A DNA stretch of 64,000 nucleotides, taken from Siphonodentalium dalli. Lineage: Eukaryota > Mollusca > Scaphopoda > Gadilida > Siphonodentaliidae. Position numbers and translations under genes: made by a program. Of the stretch, positions 8,818-52,600 are shown in pieces; position 1 is the first letter of the stretch; each line of letters begins with the position of its first letter. The stretch covers positions 11,051,287-11,115,286 of the forward strand of contig CP136061.1 in the NCBI GenBank assembly GCA_032622095.1, given 5' to 3'. The notes below the pieces were generated by a model. It saw nothing but the letters and a program-made list of their open reading frames with translations, made no database searches and was not told where the DNA came from.

Positions 8818-9000
8818 CAATTTATAAGTGCCACCGCACACGCTACGATTAAAATTAGAATGGGGAAAATCGCAGGTGGAGAAAAGTGACTTGCCCGCAG
8901 ACGCTACGGTGCAAACTCCATACAGCGCCCTCTACGCTATCGCTGCGATATATCACTGCCACAATGAGTGTACTTTGCAGACGATAAATCTATTTTTACA
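8818..9000. repeat. Dispersed repeat fragment
   Basis: A segment with GCCACCGCACACGCTACG and GGGGAAAATCGCAGGTGG matches, inverted, the segment around 16945-17000. It is therefore one copy of a dispersed family. No gene is recognised here. Confidence 0.65.
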
Positions 9001-9185
9001 TATCGTCGCGGAACTGTATTTACTACTATTTAGTACCTATTATCGTGTTTTTACCACCAATTTTTTTTTAAAGTTTTCAATAATGGTAATTCTTTCGGTA
9101 TTGATAAGAACAATATGAACTGAGCCAGACATAGACAATTTTAATCCTAAAACATAAGAACTAAAAACAGTGGTAGGCCTATCTC

Positions 9186-9555
9186 AGCGGAGGGAAGTCG
9201 GTGGCCGAGAGGTAGCGTAGGCCTACTGGTCTCTCGTGCTATCGGACCGGGGATCGCAACCTGGTCAGGGTATTCTGACAAAAATCAGAACTCGGTCAGA
9301 TACCAAGTTTGTCAGGCTGAAAAGTCTCATTCGAGATAACTGAATAAAGATCCGAATGCAAAATGCCGACTTCCCCCCATTACAACACTTGTCCAGGTAT
9401 GTTGTCGTGGGTGCAGTACGCTGTCCGTTCGGGCGCGGACATTAATGGCTGACCCGTGTACACGCCTCGGTGTGTGCACGTTAAAGAACGCTACTGGAGT
9501 CACCACAGGGTTATAAAGTTACTCGGCCGTTGTAGCACCTGGTCCTCCACATAAT
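9186..9555 (+). mobile_element. tRNA-derived SINE, plus strand
   Basis: The head at about 9197-9265 has an A-box-like GTGGCCGAGAGGTAGCG and a B-box-like GGGATCGCAACCTGG. The body contains GTGTGTGCACGTTAAAGAAC (about 9470-9490), shared with the minus-strand SINE near 6480. Pol III promoter function is inferred from family knowledge, and the head is too diverged to be a working tRNA gene. Confidence 0.75.
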
Positions 9556-10907
9556 CCTCAGCGATCACGCGCAACGTCAAGGCTGCTCGTTTGATTTTTT
9601 TCATTGTAACGTACATTTCTTCATAACTAGTTTGACCATAACGGCATTTTGTAGCTAAATGACGATTTAAACGTAAGAATCAACATTTATTATCACCACC
9701 TAAATTTATTGTGTTTGTTAACACAAATTAGCATCAAGTCTGGTTGGTGTATAAACAATATTTATTTTTTTAAATCAAATAAAAAACACAAACACAATAC
9801 AATACAAATATACAAACATTGCCGCTGCGTACGAATGGGGGTTCGGAAAACAGGTTTCCGCCTTGTTTTTCCCCCAGAAAATAAAGGGTTTTTTTACCTA
9901 GGCGGTTTTTCCTGGCCGACTGCGCAGTTTTCTCGATATGTACAATAACATGTATGTCTACATGTGCCCACAATATTCTCTGTAAACATGCAATCCTTAA
10001 TAAACGCTGACTTACGACTATGGATCGGCTTATTTGCAATATTTCGAGTTGTTTATTGTAACGTCGAATTGGGAATACTAGGTATAACTGTCATTGAGAC
10101 AACACATATTATAAATCAATTACTTCACACGGCATTACTAATGCAGCCAGGGTGTAAGTGACACTCTCGTTATTTGGCAGACTCATTAACAGATGTGATT
10201 AGCATGACATGGATCCGGTTAAACATGGTTTTATTGGGCCGGGACTGAGACCCCATTTTCACATAATTACATCATTACGTAATCCCATAATTAGTTGCAG
10301 CTCACGAACTGTGAACACACCTCATATGAACTGCCTACTCAAATTTTCTAGCAGTCAGATATAAGAACACAATAACTATTCAATTATAATAACATAGTTT
10401 GTCAATGTCAACTTTCGCTTCGCAAGCAGCCTGTCGCAAGCGGAATAAAATTCACTCCGATACATCTATCCGGGTATCGATTGTCAGTGTTACACCTCCC
10501 ATGGCTACACGTTTTCACCATTTTATGAAAACCCGACTCAGCTTGGAAATATTCTGGTGCACATCGAACAAATTATCCTTATGAACTGTTAATAAAACAA
10601 ACGAAATCTCTCGCCGGGCGTCGAAATTAATCACCAAACCAGGAATAAACAAGAAAACCATAGTCAGAAATGGTAACGCCACCAAGATCGTATTATTAGC
10701 CATAAATATAAATAATAATACAATTATTCTATAAACTAGCTTTCAAATTTTATGCGGGAAATTTGCGTACTTCCATATTTCAAGTTTTCCCGTTTCTCGT
10801 GGCATACATTACTTTCATCAAACTGTCTTCTTTATTACACAAGCTGATAGGCCCGACTTCACCCGGGCTGTTTCCCATCTGCTTTCCGGTGAAAGGTGCG
10901 ATTTGAC
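9556..10907. other. No confirmed gene
   Basis: AT-rich sequence. One minus-strand frame at 10703-10515 begins with a hydrophobic stretch resembling a signal peptide (MANNTILVALPFLTMVFLF) and is discussed in the findings. Nothing else in the stretch is recognised. Confidence 0.5.
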
Positions 10908-11430
10908 CTTCAATTGACTATTTCGAAAGTCAAGGTCAGGTCAGGGTCATGATTTGTCCAGTCCAAAACACCCCCACCCGTAGAAAACTACCCATAGGTA
11001 TCAAATTTCGTCGAAATCCGTCCGTTTTACCCAACTTGACCTTTAATTAACAATTTTGAAGGTCAAGGTAAGGTCAGAGTCATGATTTGACCCGTCCAAA
11101 ACACCCCCCCCCGACAAAAGTACCCATAGGTATCAAATTTCGTCGAAATCTATCCGTTTTATCCGAGTTGACCTTTGATTGGCCATATTGAAGGTCAAGG
11201 TCAGGCCGAGGTCACGATTTGACCCGTTCAAAACTCTCCTCGGACCAAAGTATCCCTAGGTATCAAATTTCGCCGAAATTTGTCCGTTTTACCCAAATTG
11301 ACCTTGCATTGACAGTTTTAAAGGTCAAGGTCAGGTCGGGGTCACGATTTGACCCGTTCAAAACACTTCCCGGACACAAATACCCATAGGTATCAAATTA
11401 CGTTGAAATCTATGGAAAGCCGAGGAGGAC
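10908..11430. repeat. ~130-bp tandem repeat, 4 copies
   Basis: Four diverged units each contain TTGACCTT, GGTCAAGGTCAGG, GATTTGACCCGT and CCATAGGTATCAAATT-CG. They have different accumulated point changes and an intact period, so the array is old. Confidence 0.93.
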
Positions 11431-11769
11431 ATGTTGGTTGCTAATTGCTAGATATACGACGCGGTATTTTGAAGGTGTTTCAAACTAGGAGATAGAAGTA
11501 TTCTGCCTTTCAAATGGTGATGAATTATAGTAGTTTATTCAAATTTTATGGCATAAATTGTTATTAAAACCGTATATACTATAAAAAATTAATGACTCGA
11601 AAATTAAGTGGGCCTTTAAACAAAGTCACAATTGCATTTAGGCTCATCTCATACTCGTCCATTCAGCGATATTCTACTGCGCAGTTTGTTATAGCCTCCA
11701 GTATTTATTGAGCGTTATACCCCCAACTGTTATAATTTGCCTTTAGCAGGCGTACTCTTGCCTCAGATT

Positions 11770-12620
11770 ATTGAGATATTATGTCACACATAATCACATT
11801 AAATCGCATCGTAACATAGCAATTGTGTGGGCTCCTTGGCGTGAATATGTAATGAGAAATAAGGTCATACGTAATGACATTAAACTCAAGAAAACCCTCG
11901 AAAACAAAACAAAATCACATTTAATGTTTTACGTTATTTCCTTCATAAAAAGAATCTTCGTGATAATGAACCCTCTCGTTACTTTAGAATATAGAATTAA
12001 CCTTAAAATAAAAAAAATCTTTGGAACACAGAACCTTCGGAATAACGAACCTTCGGATTGGTGAACCTTCGGAATAGCGAACATTCAGAGAAATTTCGGA
12101 ATAGTGGACCTTCGGGATAGTGAACCTTCGGAATAGAGCCATGCCCCCCAATATTCATATTATATGCCCAGAGTTCAAAGGTATGGACCCATAAAATTCA
12201 AAACTTGGCCCTTAAAATAATGAACTCCAAATTGGAGCACACACAGAACACCACTTAAGTCAACTGAACCTATGTCATGTCCCAATGCGGGAGGGTCCAT
12301 ATATACCACAACATTCATAGTATATGCCAAGAATTCAAAGGTATGGGCCCACGTAATGACATAAAATCTCAAGAAAACCAGCGAAAACAAAACAAAATCA
12401 CATTTAATGTTCTAAGTTAAGTTATTTCCTCCTGTATCTGTATCGGTGCGCGCGCATGATCAGTTCGGATGTGAGCGCACACTCCATATAAAGAATCTTT
12501 GTGAAAATGAACCCTCTCAAATTAGTCTCAATACTTTAAAATATAGAATTAACCTAAAAATAACAAAAACCTTCGGAATAGAGAACCTTCGGAATAGCGG
12601 ACATTCGGGATAGCAAACCT
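11770..12620. repeat. Duplicated segment plus ACCTTCGGAATAG short repeats
   Basis: A segment containing AACAAAACAAAATCACATTTAATG occurs at about 11900-11930 and again at about 12385-12415. Each copy is followed by clusters of an 18-bp AACCTTCGGAATAGCG motif (about 12020-12135 and 12568-12625), which makes this a local segmental duplication of about 480-bp spacing. Confidence 0.75.
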
Positions 12621-13306
12621 TCATAATAGAAGCATGTCCCCACAATTACACCGGTGACGTAAACACATGTGCCAATCTTAGTTGTACTCTCGTAATTATC
12701 GGTACGATGAAACGGTGACGGAATCTGACGAGGTTTGCCGAATGTACAATCACCCATCGACCATGCGATACAAAAAAACCAAAAGCAATAAACACCACAC
12801 TACGGTGGCGTAATGACAACATTTTCTGATTGGATGATAAGGTGATGCACGGATACTTAGTATGAAATTTAATAGTCTTGCTAATTACACAAAAAATGAT
12901 GTTTATTCCGAACAAACATCCGCCGATATTGAGTGTTGCTACGCTATCAACACACATTGATGTCTTACCGGAAATCACGCTAGGATCTCAGTGAAAGATG
13001 CCGTTATCTGATTGGATAATGCCGATATCTGCCGAAGCGTCAATTGAGGGCAACGGAGTATCAAGTAGATAGATAACTCTGCCTGGAGTTTGGCTACGGT
13101 GCTGCGATGTCTTTATATATCCGATTTCTATGCTGCGATGTATGCAGCTACGATTTTATCCACGTGGTCGATCACATGATAGCAAAATGTTATATCACAT
13201 TCTCCACATTATGCAATTATATACATATATATACATGGCATATGTATTTCAATTTTCTAAACTAACAAATTGAATTTGAAAATTCAAATGAAATTGAATA
13301 TTTTTG
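12621..13306. other. No recognised gene
   Basis: Open frames on the minus strand (12554-12978) are short, overlapping and without recognised motifs. A downstream exon of the repeat-containing ORF at 13307-14530 could lie here, but I could not identify one. Confidence 0.45.
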
Positions 13307-14530
13307 TTATTTTGACATTTTTGTACTTGTCAACTGCACAGCAGCCCTCTTCTCTTTGTCTGCAGACGGCTGATATGTGGTATAGGCCTTGCACTCCCTA
13401 TCGTGCCTTCTCTTTGTCTGCATAGCAGATGGCTGATATGTGGTATAGGCCTTGCACTCCCTAGCAGACGGCTGATATGTGGTATAGGCCTTGCACTCCA
13501 TAGCAGACGGCTGATATGTGGTATAGGCCTTGCACTCCCTAGCAGATGGCTGATATGTGGTATAGGCCTTGCACTCCCTAGCAGATGGCTGATATGTGGT
13601 ATAGGCCTTGCACTCCCTAGCAGACGGCTGATATGTGGTATAGGCCTTGCACTCCCTAGCAGACGGCTGATATGTGGTATAGGCCTTGCACTCCCTAGCA
13701 GACGGCTGATATGTGGTATAGGCCTTGCACTCCCTAGCAGATGGCTGATATGTTGTATAGGCCTTGCACTCCCTAGCAGATGGCTGATATGTTGTATAGG
13801 CCTTGCACTCCCTAGCAGATGGCTGATATGTGGTATAGGCCTTGCACTCCCTATCGTGCATAGCAGACGGCTGATATGTGGTATAGGCCTTGCACTCCCT
13901 AGCAGACGGCTGATATGTGGTATAGGCCTTGCACTCCCTATCGTGCATAGCAGACGGCTGATATGTGGTATAGGCCTTGCACTCCCTAGCAGACGGCTGA
14001 TATGTGGTATAGGCCTTGCACTCCCTATCGTGCATAGCAGACGGCTGATATGTGGTATAGGCCTTGCACTCCCTAGCAGACGGCTGATATGTGGTATAGG
14101 CCTTGCACTCCCTATCGTGCATAGCAGACGGCTGATATGTGGTATAGGCCTTGCACTCCCTAGCAGACGGCTGATATGTGGTATAGGCCTTGCACTCCCT
14201 ATCGTGCATAGCAGACGGCTGATATGTGGTATAGGCCTTGCACTCCCTAGCAGACGGCTGATATGTGGTATAGGCCTTGCACTCCCTATCGTGCATAGCA
14301 GACGGCTGATATGTGGTATAGGCCTTGCACTCCCTAGCAGACGGCTGATATGTGGTATAGGCCTTGCACTCCCTATCGTGCATAGCAGACGGCTGATATG
14401 TGGTATAGGCCTTGCACTCCCTAGCAGACGGCTGATATGTGGTATAGGCCTTGCACTCCCTATCGTGCCACATCTGCACCAATGTGGCCTCGTTTTTGTA
14501 AGTCCAAGAAGTTTGTGAACTTTGCGCCAT
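13307..14530 (-). CDS. Repeat-expanded ORF with Myb/SANT- or MADF-like ends
   Basis: The 407-codon frame starts with an ATG in good context (AAAATGG). The N-terminus includes SWTYKNEATLVQMWHDRE. A 13-residue unit, RECKAYTTYQPSA, then occurs 26 times, seven times preceded by an extra MHD, and the protein ends DKEKRAAVQ plus a short tail. If the repeats are collapsed to one, the order W, E, L-V-Q-M-W-x-D-R-E-C, AYTTY, DKEKRAA resembles the first two helices of Myb/SANT-like/MADF domains (tryptophan, leucine-rich helix, LY-type turn, nK.KR). I infer that the repeat grew inside such a domain. The opposite strand is also open across the array, so an open frame alone is weak proof. The last codons may run into an intron. 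Expression is unknown. Confidence 0.4.
   Translation of the reverse strand: MAQSSQTSWTYKNEATLVQMWHDRECKAYTTYQPSARECKAYTTYQPSAMHDRECKAYTTYQPSARECKAYTTYQPSAMHDRECKAYTTYQPSARECKAYTTYQPSAMHDRECKAYTTYQPSARECKAYTTYQPSAMHDRECKAYTTYQPSARECKAYTTYQPSAMHDRECKAYTTYQPSARECKAYTTYQPSAMHDRECKAYTTYQPSARECKAYTTYQPSAMHDRECKAYTTYQPSARECKAYTTYQPSARECKAYTTYQPSARECKAYTTYQPSARECKAYTTYQPSARECKAYTTYQPSARECKAYTTYQPSARECKAYTTYQPSARECKAYTTYQPSAMECKAYTTYQPSARECKAYTTYQPSAMQTKRRHDRECKAYTTYQPSADKEKRAAVQLTSTKMSK
13360..14468. repeat. 39-bp minisatellite with 87-bp higher-order unit
   Basis: About 26 copies of a 39-bp unit including GGCTGATATGTGGTATAGGC are nearly identical. In the distal (higher-coordinate) part, units alternate with a 9-bp insertion (ATCGTGCAT), giving a 39+48 = 87-bp higher-order repeat in seven copies. 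The proximal half is plain 39-bp units. All lengths are multiples of three, so a reading frame is kept on each strand. Confidence 0.98.
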
Positions 14531-14559
14531 TTTTGAATTTTTTCTTTTCGTGGTATTTA

Positions 14560-16450
14560 CAACATGGCCAGAGGCGTTATTTCGCTAAAATCCGATTCAG
14601 ATTCTCGATTCAGATTACAGATTGGTCCCCGTACGACTTGGTTCGACAAAAGAACAGACCAGAAATTGGCAGAATCAGTAAACGAACAGACCGTAACCTC
14701 AATTTCGTGGTAATCCGATTGGGATTCGGATTCCGATTACGGACTCAAATGTTCGTAATGTAAACAAACCGAGATTTCGCCACCTCAGAGTTTAAAAACA
14801 CAATAAAACATAAGAATCCGTCTCTTGTGTACAAATTATTGCATAATATAAACGATCTATATCAAAGAATTTTAAATGCGGAGACAAATTTTTTTTATTG
14901 AATGTAAACTGGGAGAATATTACTGAAATTAGCCAAATAATAACGCTATTGATAGTAACGCTGGTGAGCACTTCGGTTGATGGCGAAGCAATTGCAAATC
15001 ATTGTTGATTGTCACTTTCATATGTCCATTTCATAATTCCATCCTTAAAATACCGCCCGAACGCATGTCGATTTCGAATTCGGCGGATACGTAACCATTG
15101 ACCGAATTCATATGAACCTGCATGGATATGTCTTCTGCTGTGTTCGTTATTATAATGTTTCTTCTTATTCAAGAAATAGTAGGATTATATGGTATCGATG
15201 GATTATCAGATACACGTATGTACTATCATCTAGTCTTAAAGTTATAGCAATTTCATGTTTAACATGTTTTGTTTCGTTAAATGCAGTCATTTTGCACAAT
15301 AGTCTCTGTATAGACAACAGACACATGTTCTAGGGACGTGGCTAGAAGTTTACTCAAATTTCCGGCCAACTGCACCCCCCCCCATTGAACCAAACATCAA
15401 TCTCACAGGTTCGCAGAATTCAATTTGCTCCCCTTGGAAATATCCAATCTGACAAACACTAAGATTGGAAAATTACCAACTTTTACTGGTTGAAAAAAAT
15501 AAAACAATGACAACAATGCCAACCTATATATATGGTGTCAAATTAATGTCCAACTAATGTTGTGTCATGCATGAAATTTCCGACTGCTGGAATGTACCAA
15601 AGTTTAGTTTAGATATATTTATTTCAAATATATGTCAAATTTAGATAACACATGATATATAACACATATATTTGTTTATACATCCAAAGGAATTGGGGGA
15701 CAAGTACTGACTCACTTAAGGGTACCCCCTCTCCCATATGCTATTACACCGAAAAAATAAATAATTAGTAATGGCAAAGCAACATGACTACCAAAAACAA
15801 GTTGAACATATATACAGATCACTGGACACCCCCTCTCCCGAGTTAGTCATAAGTTTGTATATGTATTTATTTAAAATCGGGTTTGTTTGTTGCGTTTGTT
15901 GGCTTGTACGTATCATTATTTGAAACAGTTAGTCAAAATAATCCTGATTTTCCTCACGTATGAATGACTGCACAGCTTAGCAAATTGTACCAAAGTTCGG
16001 GGTGGGGGTCGAGACACCCAATCAACCCCTGTCGTCACGTCCCTGTTCAACTGACAAGTTTCGTGTGTTCTTCACAACATCTTCGGAATTTGATTCAGGA
16101 GGCCTAGAGCTGTCACGTTTAGATATGCTTGCCATCATCAATAAACACACTTTAACTTGAAAAAAAAGATGCGATTAAGTCGGATTGGCAGCAAATTATG
16201 TGCCGTGTATATACACATAGAAGAAAAGCATGACGTTCACAACAAACATGCACTTTATAAATATAAGTTACAAATGATACTTGTGTCAAATACATGAGTC
16301 ATGTTTGACGCTGGGAGAACATTAAACATAGTTTCGGAGACCACGTGGATTTCAAAATCTGACCTAGAATCGGGAATTAGCCCCGCCCCCGTAATCGGCT
16401 TCGGATTCTCAATCCGGATTTTAGCGAAATTACGACTCTGTTCGACAATG
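14560..16450. repeat. Inverted pair of a ~120-bp segment
   Basis: A segment at about 14566-14640 with ATTTCGCTAAAATCCGATT is repeated inverted at about 16385-16440. The 1.7 kb between is AT-rich and has no recognised gene. The pair could be two dispersed copies or the ends of an old element. No target duplication was found. Confidence 0.5.
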
Positions 16451-16509
16451 GTCATGTGACAGCTTCGATCGCGCGCGTTGCCAAGGTCACGCCACGATTT
16501 TCCTGGTAA

Positions 16510-16990
16510 AAATCAAACAGTGCTTGATCGCTACGTGTACCTTCAGACGACCACGATACAATCGTAAGTGGAAAGATTTCCGTCGTAGGAAGTAACCGGA
16601 ATATGGACTGCGCATGCCCACGTCAAAATCGTAGGTCATAAAGTAATATCAAGCGCTGTTTGATTTTAGATGCGAAATCGTGGCGTATCCTTGGTTACCT
16701 CCACTTGCGACGTAATCGCAGTCGTGTGTACGTAAAAATCGTAGCTGGAAATTACCGTAGGGTAGTCAATCACATGCTTTAGAACAACCTACGATATCAT
16801 AATGTACGCGTGACATCGCAATCGTCTGAACAATTTATCCACGATCTCGTCGGGCCCGATTCCCCCACTTATGATTGTATCGTGGTCGTCTGAAGGTACA
16901 CTATGATTTGGCTACGATATTGTCGTGGGCATGCGCATTGGATTCCCCACATGCGATTTTCCCCACTTACGATTTTAATCGCAGCGTCTG
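16510..16990. repeat. Inverted repeat element with CTACGATT motifs
   Basis: The left part (about 16530-16640: TACCTTCAGACGACCACGAT, TGCGCATGCCCACG) is matched inverted on the right (about 16865-16945: ATCGTGGTCGTCTGAAGGTA, CGTGGGCATGCGCA). Multiple CTACGATT/AATCGTAG words lie between. Part of this family occurs at 8818-9000. Confidence 0.75.
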
Positions 16991-16994
16991 CGGT

Positions 16995-17090
16995 GGCAGT
17001 GTGTATGCAGTGTGGATAAACGGAAGTAATTACATGTAGGAAGTGTGGATAAACGGAAGTAATTAAATGTAAGCAGTGTGGATTAGACCC
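16995..17090. repeat. 33-bp minisatellite, first cluster
   Basis: About two to three copies of the GTGTGGAT-AACGGAAGTAATT unit. A second cluster of five copies lies at 17975-18140. Confidence 0.85.
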
Positions 17091-34500: not shown

Positions 34501-36485
34501 CTATGATGTGTCCATAGATAAATCTGTCCTGCAGTCTGCCTCCGACGGAATAGCGACACTACATGCCTCGCTCTGCGGCAAAGACAAATTCTCAACAATT
34601 TCCTCTGTCTTTAAAACAATTCCGCTCACATGACTACCTTCAGCTGAAACGCTCTTTAAAAAATATTTCTCATCAGAAACAACCTTATGATCATCCTCTA
34701 TGCTAAGATTGTTCTCAGATTGGGTTTCAACGTTATTAATGCTAAAATGTTTTTCATTTTTACCAGGGGAACACCCATCTCCACTCACTTCCATTGAATG
34801 CATCTCTTTGCTGCCTACTATCTCCATAGCAACGTCCTCGTGACAAACTGAATCAGCATCTCCAGTTACCGTAGCAACGATACTGACATTGTCTTCAATT
34901 GTTTTTTCAATTATAGGAACTGGTAACCTCTCAGTTTCTTTGTTTATTTCTGTAAATATCGACTCCAAAGAAACAACATATTTAACAGGGTCTATACCGT
35001 CCCCGAACTTTGAATCAGAAAATTTCTTCTCTTGATTTACAGGAACTTGTTGTCTAGCAACGGCTAGATTCTCTCTTGCATCAACAATGACACTGTCTTT
35101 TGGGATGAAATCAGCATGTGAAGTTTCACATGTCGATTTGGATACCAGATCATTTGTAATGACAAAAGTATTAATAGTTTCTGATGTGTCCTGCTTCTCA
35201 TCATTTTTTATCTCGCCATCATCGGGTTGAGATATCTCTGTGGTTTTTATCGTACTTGCATCAGGTTGAGTTTTATCCTCAGATTTTACCATACTGGCAT
35301 CCGGTTGAGAATTATCCTCGGTTTTAACCATGGTAGCAAACAGTTGAGATTTCTCCTCGGTTTTCATAATACTTTCATCACAACGTGGTATGTTCATGGT
35401 TTTTACCGTATTTGTGTACATTCGTGAACTTGCTCCGCTTCCTTGTATAATTTTTATGACTGGAAAATTTCCTGGATATTGCTGGCTGACTGTCAGTTTA
35501 GAAAGAATTTCAACCTTCTTTGTCAACGAAGCATTTTCAGACAAAACAATAGTGTCCTTGACCTTAGCGCTGACCGCTGAATGCTTTTCTTCAACCTTCA
35601 ACTGAGGCATCCTAGCAGCAGAAAGCGGCCGTATGTCATTTGACTTTGAGACAGTTTGTACCGTATTTTGCTCCTTCTTTGTGGCCTGTTCATCATCAGT
35701 AACCATGGTAACTGAAGAATATTCTTCCTTTTTATGAACTGACTCAACTTTCTTCGGATTCACCTTAATAACGTGCACATTGTCTGTTTTCACTGTAGAA
35801 TCGTTCAACTTTGTAGAACATTCTTCAACCACTCTCGGCAAAACTTTCATTGAATGTAGGCTAGCTGCCTTAATTGCGGGAGAGAAATGAGCATCTCGGG
35901 CGTATGAGGTATTTTAGGATTCCTCGTTATGACACAAGTCGGGGCTGATGCATCCATAGATGAGGCTCCCATCTTCACAAAAATGTTCTCCACCTCCTTG
36001 TAATCCTTTTTAAGTCTACTCTGATCTGGATGATGAAGTGATTCCACCTCCTTGTAATCCTTTTTAAGTCTACTCTGATCTGGATGATGAAGTGATTCCA
36101 CCTCCTTGTAATCCTTTTTAAGTCTACTCTGATCTGGATCATGAAGTGATTCCTTTGAGATGTTTTTTATTGCTTTTGACGGCAGTTCGACTTCAGATTT
36201 TCCGTTTTCAGATTTTACTGTAGTTTCGCTGGATGATGTTCCATCATCTACTTTAACACAACTGTCATCACTTCTATCAGCAACGTTGTTATTCTGAGAT
36301 TCTGGGTAATAAGTTTTTAGACGGATGTGCCATGCTAAGCTCGTTACAGCAGAAACCGTCTTGAACTGATGTATTATGTTACGAGGTATGAAGTATATGT
36401 CGTTGTCTCGGAGGAAGATGCGTGAGTATCTGATACCTTCTCGACGGAGGTAATTCAGTTTTGCATCATCTAACCATGTGACACA
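34501..36485 (-). CDS. RSBN1: RSBN1 exon 5 with an 18-aa repeat and an apparent frameshift
   Basis: The acceptor is ATCATTTCAG before 36485. The first 53 codons finish the conserved domain ([39 protein letters not shown]). A low-complexity tail includes three tandem copies of [18 protein letters not shown] (36152-35991). This frame stops at TGA 35849-35847. A second frame opens after a TAA at 35916-35914 and stays open for about 470 codons to TAG at 34503-34501. It is rich in KTE/KSED repeats such as [13 protein letters not shown]. The two frames overlap in 35850-35913. A 1-nt assembly or allelic deletion, or a small unrecognised intron, would join them. The alternative is that the protein ends at 35847. 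Confidence 0.88.
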
Positions 36486-37611
36486 CTGAAATGATTAAAA
36501 CACAAACAGTTAGTCATAAGTTTCAGGTATTTTTTTCAAATTTGGTAACAGCTATATTATTAGTTATTTTACCAACATCAGGGAAATAAATCTCTTCATG
36601 AAGGAGGGACCCAAATAAAGAAAATAATATGGAGGGGGTGGGTTAAAATTCATACAGTAACTGAGGGGGGGGGGGGTCCCAGGCAGTTCTTGACATACAG
36701 ATACTGAGGGGGGATCCCAGGCAGGTCTTGACATACAGATACTGAGGGGGGGGGGGAATCCCAGGCAGTTCTTGACATACAGATACCGGTACTGAGTGGG
36801 GATCCCTGGCAGTTCTTGACATACATATACTGAGGGGGGGGGGGGGGTCCCAGGCAGTTCTTGACATACAGATACTGAGGGGGATCTCAGGCAGTTCTTG
36901 ACATACAGATACTGAGTGGGGGGATCACAGGCAGGTCTTGACATACAGATACTGAGGGGGATCTCAGGCAGTTCTTGACATACAGATACTGAGTGGGGGG
37001 ATCACAGGCAGGTCTTGACATACAGATACTGAGGGGGATCCCAGGCAGTTCTTGACATAGATACTGGGGGGGGGGGGGGAATCCCAGGCAGTTCTTGACA
37101 TACAGATACTGGGGGGGGGGGGGGAATCCCAGGCAGTTCTTGACATACAGCTACTGGGGGGGGGGAATCCCAGGCAGTTCTTGACATAGATACTGAGGGG
37201 GGGGGGGGGGTGGGTAGGTAAAAACCAGACAGGTCTTGACATACAGATGATGTAAACATTATTTATTTAGTATCCCAGATTTATACAACAATTTACAAAA
37301 TGATGTTAATATATATATATGTAAGTATGATAAGTCTGAGAGAGAAGAGGATTTGACATCAAGCGCCAGGCGCTTACATGGAGCCATCTCCTCCATCTCC
37401 TTGACATACAGATACTGGGGGGGGGGGGGGGGGGGGGTGTGGGTTAAAAATCAGACAGGTCTTGACAGACTGATTGGCTATTATTCCACACGATCCTGGT
37501 GGATGAAATCTCATATATTCACCTGAAATAATTTGTTTTCTGAATAAAAATGAAAATAACTAGGCAAGTCTTATCGATATGAAGGGGGTGGGTTAAAATT
37601 CAGGCAGGACC

Positions 37612-49600: not shown

Positions 49601-52600
49601 AAGACAGTAAACTTTTTCCGGACATTCCGTATCTGATTCTGGACATTCCGTATCTGATTTCAGAATTACGATATAAAATACAAATGGCACACTTTTTGTT
49701 AGGGGACGGAACATCATGTCTGAAATTGGATTTATTATGACTTCAATTTGTAATTCTTGGACATATTATTAAATGCTCGTAGAAAGGTAGTTCAGTTATT
49801 TATCGACCTACATGTATTTCGATACCAGGAAAAATTCAAAAGCGAATCCATATTATGACGGATTGTCGCCAGAGCGCAAACCACCAGTTTGTTTTAAGGA
49901 ATATGGAATCACGATTTTCAAATGTGTCAACAGTGATTGAAAAGAGTCAGCCCAGTCAGAGGGCCATGGTCACAAGAGTATATCATATTTTTGTAAATAG
50001 ATCGCTTCTAGTGGACATGCATGCTTTCATAGTCACCAAATCCAATCAGAGGGGTGGTCGGTTGCATGTGTCAGACAGACTAATCTAATCAAGATAATCC
50101 TGTGTTGTGATCTGTTGGCCATCTGATCTGGTTGTAAGATATCCATGAGATGTTTTAATGGGCCAATTTGTGACACATTTACATTGAATCTAAGAAATCT
50201 TAAAATTGGGATTCGTTGGTAGTTTCAGGTGTCAAAAGTATCAATTATGTTTTATTTTTTTAGCATGTTGGCACACTTGAAAACAGCTAAACGTTGTTTA
50301 TAATAAGTATATAACAAATTTTTTATAGAAATTTTCGAAATTTGATATTCCATATTCCATAATCTAAATATTGTTTTAGCATGGAAGGAGAGACCTAATA
50401 CACACCTTTTCTTCTTATATGGAGATTTCAAGTCTGCGGTTGGAACCATTTGCTCCCCGGGTCTGGTCCATAAAATAGGTCCATCATCACTCTGCGTCCT
50501 TGACTCCATTTTGACTGACGACCAGTGACCCCAGGGCATCACAGCTCGTAGGAAATAGTCCCTTTCCATCGTATCAAGAATTTTTGGGAAATAGTCGCCA
50601 GCCTCTTCGTTGACCGCACCAACAACACTGACCTGCAGTAGTGCACCTGAGCGGAACGTACCATGACTGTAAGTCCTTCTCATTTCTTCATAACACTTCA
50701 GTATAGATTCTGTCTCAATGTCGGATTTACCAGGGGTACTAACTTTGACAGTGAGATTTGAATAATGTGTCGCCAAAAACTGAACAAAGTCTGGGAACCC
50801 CTCTGCTGCATTATGAACTATACCCATTACAAAGTGAGACTCCCCTTCAGATGGTTCAGTAAACAGCAAGCGGAAATATTCATCAACAAATTCCTTAAGT
50901 TCACCGTCAGAAAGTTTAGAAATTTCATCCTGATATAAATGGACGGTTAAAGCGCCCCCATTTGAGCACCTTTCAATATGAACATACTTTGAATACTTTT
51001 CGCTGATTGGATAATTTGATAGAGACAGTGAAGAACAAGATTGCTGTTTCTTACTACATTGTGTTAGTTTGATGTTTGTGGAGGTTGAATGCTGTTCGTT
51101 ACCACATGGTGCCTGTTTGATGTTTGTGGAGGTTGAATGCTGTTCGTTACCACATGGTGCCTGTTTGATGTCCGTGGAGATTGAATGCTGTTCGTTACCA
51201 CATGGTGCCTGTTTGATGTTTGTGGAGGTTGAATGCTGTTCGTTACCACATGGTGCCTGTTTGATGTCCGTGGAGTTTGAATGCTGTTTGTTACCACATG
51301 GTACCTGTTTGATGTTTGTGGAGGTTGGATGAGATACAGGTGCCTGAATAGTTTGAGTACTTGAACTTTTTGATACTTTAGTCTCATTATGTGATGAGAC
51401 TGTCTTCATAGATTCTTCCTTGTGAAAGTTTGTCTGACATGACTTGGTATTGGTTCTTCTTCTTAGGTTAACCTGAACACCACAATTACTCACAATTTTC
51501 TTGCGAATTGCAAGCTTAGGCACAGTTCCATTAACCTCAACATTTAAGCATTGTAGAGTTGAAACTTGTTTGTCGTCAACTGTCTTCGTTAACAGTTTGG
51601 TATCGTTTTTACTGGTACTTGAGGTTTTGTGATGGTGGTGATGTCGATGGTGATGATGGTGATGATGGTGGTGTTTACTTGATTTGTGATGTGATGGCTT
51701 CTCAGGCGTATCTTTGTCATGTTTTGTTTCTTTCTTAACACCATCAGCAGGACGGCTATTGAGACCTGCTGTAAAAGGCTTATTTTCATCAGGAAGGTGA
51801 TGTTTCTTTCCTCCATGTTTTCTTTCCTTCTCCTCTTCTGAAATCAAAATGACAAAAAAAGATCATGAGTTGGATGACCAAATAAGACCTCTTTTCATAA
51901 ACACTTGGTTAGCAGATTATTCCTCTAAAAGTTCAGTTGGTCGATCAAATTAAAAATGGTTTTAATTAGATGTAAAGGCTCACAAACATTTTCGAATGCC
52001 CAGATCACATTATACACAACATATTCCATAGCATATACCATGCTTTGGAAGAGGAAATATACCAAGGATTATCCCTATTATGGCTGTTAGCATGCGAGAG
52101 CATGAACATTAGTGTCATCGACTCACCGATTAGTAGTCACCCTATAAACTCTGATGGGAAACTAGCATGGTCTGGGGGGGGGGGGGGGGGGTCAGTCAGT
52201 AATAGAGCTTTCCACTCATACTCATATTCACTAGTGGGAGGAGTTTACGGTCGCTACGAGACAAGGTATTTGCAGAAATATTTTGTTTGTCTATCAGCAC
52301 TTTACCTTATGTTATAACAAGCTGAAACAGTCTCCTTGGTGTGCATTGCTTTATACATATTGATATTTTAAACATTTTGATTTAAAAAAAAAAAAATAGA
52401 AATAATTTTTGTTTTAATTAAATTTTTGAATGTTTTTAGATTGAACTCCTTGCTCAATTTAAATTTCTATTTTTTTAATTTAAGAAAAATCTAATTAAAT
52501 TATAGATTGTTTTAAGGTCTTGCTCAATTTAAAAATTGAAAAAAAGTTAATGATTGTATTTTTTTTAGATTGAATTGCTTTCTCAATTTAACATTTAAAA

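Follow-up and report, generated by a model that had tools for sequence, protein, structure and literature searches.

Transposable elements, among them MITEs, have been described as birthplaces of minisatellites (PMC6947457, PMC9659126). According to these accounts, part of an element copy undergoes duplication between short repeats and is multiplied afterwards, and nonautonomous elements and MITEs are frequent sources; the locus reported here is like them in both respects. They name Alu, B1, LTR and other MITE types as sources; the present unit derives from the relic of a coding exon in a Harbinger-like element and is open by coincidence. BrickBuilt, a bacterial MITE minisatellite (PMC4596501), also lies inside a MITE, but its repeat is presented there as part of the element family, whereas here a large expansion is found in one copy only. 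PIF elements typically make a 3-bp target duplication, and their second gene encodes a Myb-like/MADF protein (PMC9710019). PIF/Harbinger elements of this kind and their nonautonomous derivatives, as outlined in that source, share with the present element the 3-bp target duplication, the inverted ends and the MADF-type exon relic; unlike them, the element copies studied here contained no transposase that we could find. The titles and abstract openings listed by searches of open-licence papers gave no description of this element or of a minisatellite in a MADF relic.

The DNA analysed, referred to as the window, is a stretch of 64,000 bp from the 2.2-Gb genome of the scaphopod Siphonodentalium dalli (contig CP136061.1, positions 11,051,287 to 11,115,286); coordinates below are those of the window. 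Here we establish the anatomy of a tandem array on its minus strand, the family membership of the element copy that holds it, the shift of its reading frame and the insertions nested around it (Table 1). Very probably the array is a young minisatellite, and the copy around it a dead nonautonomous element of PIF/Harbinger-like type (MITE); members of this family bear the first exon of a MADF gene.

Table 1. Features of the array, the relic exon, the host element and its insertions
Feature	Position	Strand	Details	Basis
ORF spanning the array, 407 codons	13307..14530	-	ATG at 14530, TAA at 13307; probably fortuitous	Two other frames likewise open
5' part of MADF exon relic	14459..14530	-	MAQSSQTSWTYKNEATLVQMWHDR, in MADF frame	Alignment with 18 dispersed copies; in-frame relatives match PF10545
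Tandem array	13362..14458	-	26 units	TRF and direct count
63-bp unit	13397..13459	-	Family-like sequence TATGCAGACAAAGAGAAG; likely trace of founding duplication	Count against family sequence
3' part of exon relic	13307..13361	-	ADKEKRAAVQLTSTKMSK, again in MADF frame; 24-base deletion, changed splice-donor-like site	Alignment with dispersed copies
5' terminal inverted repeat region of MITE	16901..16998	-		Alignment to L013
MITE fragment between two insertions	16460..16535	-		Alignment to L013
MITE fragment with relic-exon start and first array unit	14422..14571	-		94.7% to L013
MITE fragment past array	13131..13407	-		82% with gaps to L013
3' terminal inverted repeat region of MITE	8825..8912	-	Flank TAA (8825-8827)	Alignment to L013
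4.2-kb insertion in MITE	8912..13092		9-bp inverted ends; perfect 9-bp target duplication GCTACGGTG at 8903-8911 and 13093-13101
1.87-kb insertion in MITE	14569..16440		Inverted ends of about 50 bp
Insertion of about 365 bp in MITE	about 16536..16900		Inverted ends of 36 bp

Results

The tandem array

The initial annotation reported a 39-bp minisatellite expanded about 26-fold, and its place, size and frame proved correct. At 13423-14462 TRF finds a 39-bp period in 25.1 copies, along with higher-order periods of 87 and 174 bp. Direct counting on the minus strand gives 26 near-identical units of 39, 48 and, once, 63 bp, arranged head to tail and within the 10-100 bp of minisatellite units. Read from the ATG side, spacings of 39 and 48 bp alternate seven times and are followed by ten of 39 bp, one of 63 bp and the last unit, which ends in TCTGC. 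All 26 units start in the same codon phase. Such an array is far outside chance expectation.

The seven 87-bp pairs are identical to one another, and the mean divergence between units is 1.5% per site (35-base core). The flanks of the window copy are more divergent: against 18 other copies of the element, the left flank differs by 5-14% and the right flank by 7-9% from 17 of the 18 (31% from L015). The array is therefore younger than the insertion of the element. Seven identical 87-bp copies are a place where assemblers slip, so that part of the length could be an artefact, with identical units collapsed or falsely expanded. We consider this highly unlikely, as the variant units are ordered and the flanks normal; the existence of the array does not depend on the exact count.

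The window as a whole is very rich in minisatellites (99 overlapping TRF rows in 64 kb). At 51042-51331, on the minus strand, an in-frame minisatellite (6.0 × 48 bp) lies inside the ORF 50252-51862, which matches the solved structure 5uqd (E 4.5e-37) and which we take to be DPY-21/RSBN1. This array is a true coding minisatellite and the comparison case for 13307-14530. Another in-frame minisatellite (35989-36153, minus strand, 3.1 × 54 bp) lies inside the ORF 35847-36494, which has no Pfam match over the cut-off and is presumably another exon of the same gene. The plus-strand stretch 59132-59521 matches 2e50 (E 2.5e-25) and encodes the N-terminal portion of a protein of the SET/NAP family. Neither Rfam nor a tRNA scan gave a match in the window.

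A dispersed element family

A two-unit DNA query, for which 40 of 70 candidates were scored, has at least 52 matches in the genome. Thirteen are in the window array and 39 elsewhere, with 37 of the 39 covering about one unit. A coding minisatellite in a host gene had been considered first and was dropped once these dispersed copies of the unit appeared. A 28-base core has 57 exact matches, spread over all 9 of the 9 sequences of the genome; the reversed control has none. We fetched 20 of the 39 matches outside the window and later 39 more exact-core copies, 18 of the 57 exact-core copies being already among the first 20. In these first 20 the common sequence is confined to about -400 to +380 of the unit, and several copies are truncated.

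Terminal inverted repeats were located at both ends by motif search in 26 of the 57 exact-core copies, and the length of the element in these copies is 522-813 bp (median 663 bp). The 3-bp flanks are identical in 16 of the 26, as against 27% for cross-paired flanks, and 14 of the 16 are TTA or TAA. PIF/Harbinger elements prefer TTA/TAA targets, and the flanks therefore fit an assignment to this group. The family has the inverted repeats at both ends, the 3-bp target duplication and the MADF-gene remnant of a PIF/Harbinger-like MITE. The MADF (Myb/SANT-like) gene behind the exon would presumably be the second gene of the transposon itself. For PF13359, the Harbinger transposase family, the genome contains at least 150 matches, none of them linked to the inverted ends of the element. 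Three in-frame relic copies (L053-L055, C7:64897006-64918318) lie about 10.5 kb apart with nearly identical readings and are perhaps a tandemly repeated larger segment.

The array lies inside one copy of this dispersed inverted-repeat element, which bears out the earlier suggestion of a transposon-derived origin. The window copy aligns piecewise, on the minus strand, to the sister copy L013 over 8825-16998. It is a broken copy of the nonautonomous element, cut by three further insertions. The 1.87-kb insertion ends 38 bases upstream of the ATG of the ORF, and the nearest insertion downstream of the stop is about 200 bases away. A clean target duplication was not seen for the 1.87-kb and the 365-bp insertions. 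The outer 3-bp flanks of the window copy are unmatched, with no TAA after 16998 to pair with that at the 3' end.

MADF ancestry and the shifted frame

The flanks of the array had been read, with the repeat collapsed, as a Myb/SANT- or MADF-type domain. That assignment holds by ancestry and fails for the peptide itself. Pfam gave no MADF match for the full ORF, for several collapsed forms, for an array-masked form or for a construct in which X links the two halves of the dispersed relic. Two control domains cut to 37-52 residues did match (3e-9 to 2e-8). A PDB sequence search with the collapsed form found no match, and viral contigs searched with the collapsed protein held no relative. The window contains a single instance of the flank motif W[TS]x6L[IVL]xx[WYF], against 0.72 expected per window in 60 simulations; the motif is uninformative alone since chance gives about this count in 64 kb.

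The evidence for ancestry comes from relatives. Both halves of the relic exon, combined into one protein query, have at least 151 genome matches (150 scored among 798 candidates), several of them open throughout. Five in-frame readings, from 20 loci that were cut out, were submitted to Pfam; PF10545 (MADF) is the top family in all five and is over the cut-off of 22 bits in one (26.0 bits, the other four having 13-20 bits). These matches cover the 84-position profile from position 1 to 37-46, the point at which the readings end. The element thus carries about the first half of the MADF domain, probably in one exon. Judged by these relatives, a Myb/SANT-like MADF exon is the ancestor of the flanks, and it is within this exon that the array is found. 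Profile searching of the repeat-collapsed protein, proposed in the initial annotation as a check, was accordingly negative for the window peptide and positive for PF10545 in its relatives.

The repeated part is in another frame. In four in-frame relatives GTGC is followed directly by CTATAC or CTGTAT. Four additional bases, AGGC, follow GTGC in the 20 copies first fetched (the 57 exact-core copies contain AGGC by the choice of the search pattern), and in the window all 26 of the 26 units have five, AAGGC. KAYTTYQPSA, the repeated residues, are therefore a shifted reading of the MADF exon. As the inserted bases are in every unit, the MADF frame was probably lost before the array expanded. The last array unit lacks five bases (TATGC), and a further 24 bases are missing beyond; the net arithmetic of the two losses brings the frame back at ADKEKRAA, a one-in-three outcome.

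These frames decide against an array of multiplied MADF helix units in a multi-site DNA-binding protein. The unit does originate inside the MADF exon, but its repeated letters are in a frame shifted relative to in-frame MADF copies and have no domain match over the cut-off. We regard this reading as scarcely credible, and the earlier view of the repeat as a coding part of a DNA-binding domain finds no support, KAYTTYQPSA being read out of the MADF frame.

The open reading frame

As the initial annotation stated, the 407 codons on the minus strand contain no internal stop, from the ATG at 14530 to the TAA at 13307. Over the array three of the six frames are open, and the two besides the ORF run for about 400 codons (399-408). 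All unit lengths being multiples of three, a frame without a stop in the unit stays open across the array, and three of the unit's six frames are of this kind. The length of the ORF consequently reflects copy number and not coding.

Openness of this kind is common. When random 39-bp pieces of the window (n = 3000) are repeated, 98.4% give at least one open frame and 63% give at least three. We hand-picked 33 arrays among the 99 TRF rows of the window for a tally of period and openness; the period is divisible by three in 13, and 9 of these 13, among them the array at 13307-14530, have one or more frames open throughout. Units from 18 sister copies of the family, repeated in silico, have some open frame in 18 of 18 cases at 39 bp and still in 17 of 18 at 38 bp, which is not a multiple of three. 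Since the units of sister copies stay open too, the openness of the array frame needs no selection. The open frame, unlike the array, is not beyond chance, and retention of the frame is weak evidence for coding. The caveat already attached to the initial annotation, that frame retention could be a by-product, is the better reading, and the repeat most likely produced the long ORF incidentally.

Base changes were considered alongside. The units show three kinds of base change, of which two leave the peptide unaltered when read in the ORF frame but alter it in both other open frames; for random changes the silent share in the ORF frame would be 22%. Among the 18 copies the N-terminal relic has 8, 14 and 23 changes at codon positions 1, 2 and 3, and the C-terminal relic has 24, 19 and 15, with no third-position excess.

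An expressed repeat protein from the array is possible but unlikely. It would be a new repetitive protein, Cys/Tyr-rich and with a MADF-like start, made from a relic exon transcribed from promoters of the element or the host, and with the frame of the array under selection. The long ORF with its ATG and frame kept, the silent kinds of substitution, the third-position excess in the N-terminal relic and the return to the MADF frame past the array, itself a one-in-three event, all fit such a gene, and exon growth does happen in the S. dalli genome, as in the 48-bp minisatellite of the ORF 50252-51862. Against it are the three open frames, the equal openness of random and sister-copy units, the position of the repeated part outside the ancestral MADF frame, the insertions close to both ends of the ORF and the lack of a domain match over the cut-off. 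We judge a new protein gene very unlikely. The proposal that selection kept the frame of the array is likewise unsupported: the repeat is out of the MADF frame, a related copy has a duplication that is not a multiple of three, and the element copy carries three insertions. We favour instead a minisatellite in a dead MITE copy, the long ORF of which most likely encodes nothing used.

Growth of the array

The 63-bp unit keeps the family-like TATGCAGACAAAGAGAAG, joined to CACGATAGG, which suggests how the array may have begun. In the first event a stretch of about 63 bp would have been duplicated in tandem, so that the exon piece ran from its end directly into its own start. The 48-bp unit could then have arisen from the 63 bp by loss of 15 bases between two GCA, and the 39-bp unit by loss of nine bases between two TA, in both cases by slippage between short direct repeats. 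Unequal exchange or slippage would have multiplied the 87-bp pair, to seven identical copies, and the 39-bp unit.

Small duplications are found at the same site in three of the 59 other copies examined: 36 bp × 2.1 in L009, 48 bp × 2.0 in L027 and, not a multiple of three, 17 bp × 2 in L085. L009 and L027 were found by a query that favours tandem copies, and the exact-core copies alone give one in 57. A pattern of closely spaced tandem cores has 22 exact matches genome-wide, of which the window array accounts for 21 and L009 for the other. A looser tandem pattern has 137 matches (reversed control, 4); among the 100 of these that were listed, 22 are in the window array and the only others in the family are L027 and L009. 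A large expansion is thus seen in the window copy only. Two long minisatellites at C3:287620855-287622310 and C6:21441794-21467880 are unrelated and have only the word AGGGAGTGCA in common with the array.

Discussion

The array is an ordinary kind of event, well dissected. Should it be expressed, a dead transposon exon would have become, through growth out of frame, an n-mer of a new repetitive Cys/Tyr peptide (ECKAYTTYQPSAR), its ends keeping residues in the MADF frame, and a gene would have been caught at birth. We see only a very slim prospect of this. As a minisatellite in a dead element copy, the locus is a stepwise example of how an array of triplet length in a broken transposon copy comes to look like a repetitive gene, and the many sister copies that did not expand serve as controls. 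For gene finders and for readers of annotations it is a warning that long repeat ORFs need to be tested against the openness that unit length gives by chance. The relatives, with their at least 151 matches, form a natural series in which the start sites of first tandem duplications can be studied.
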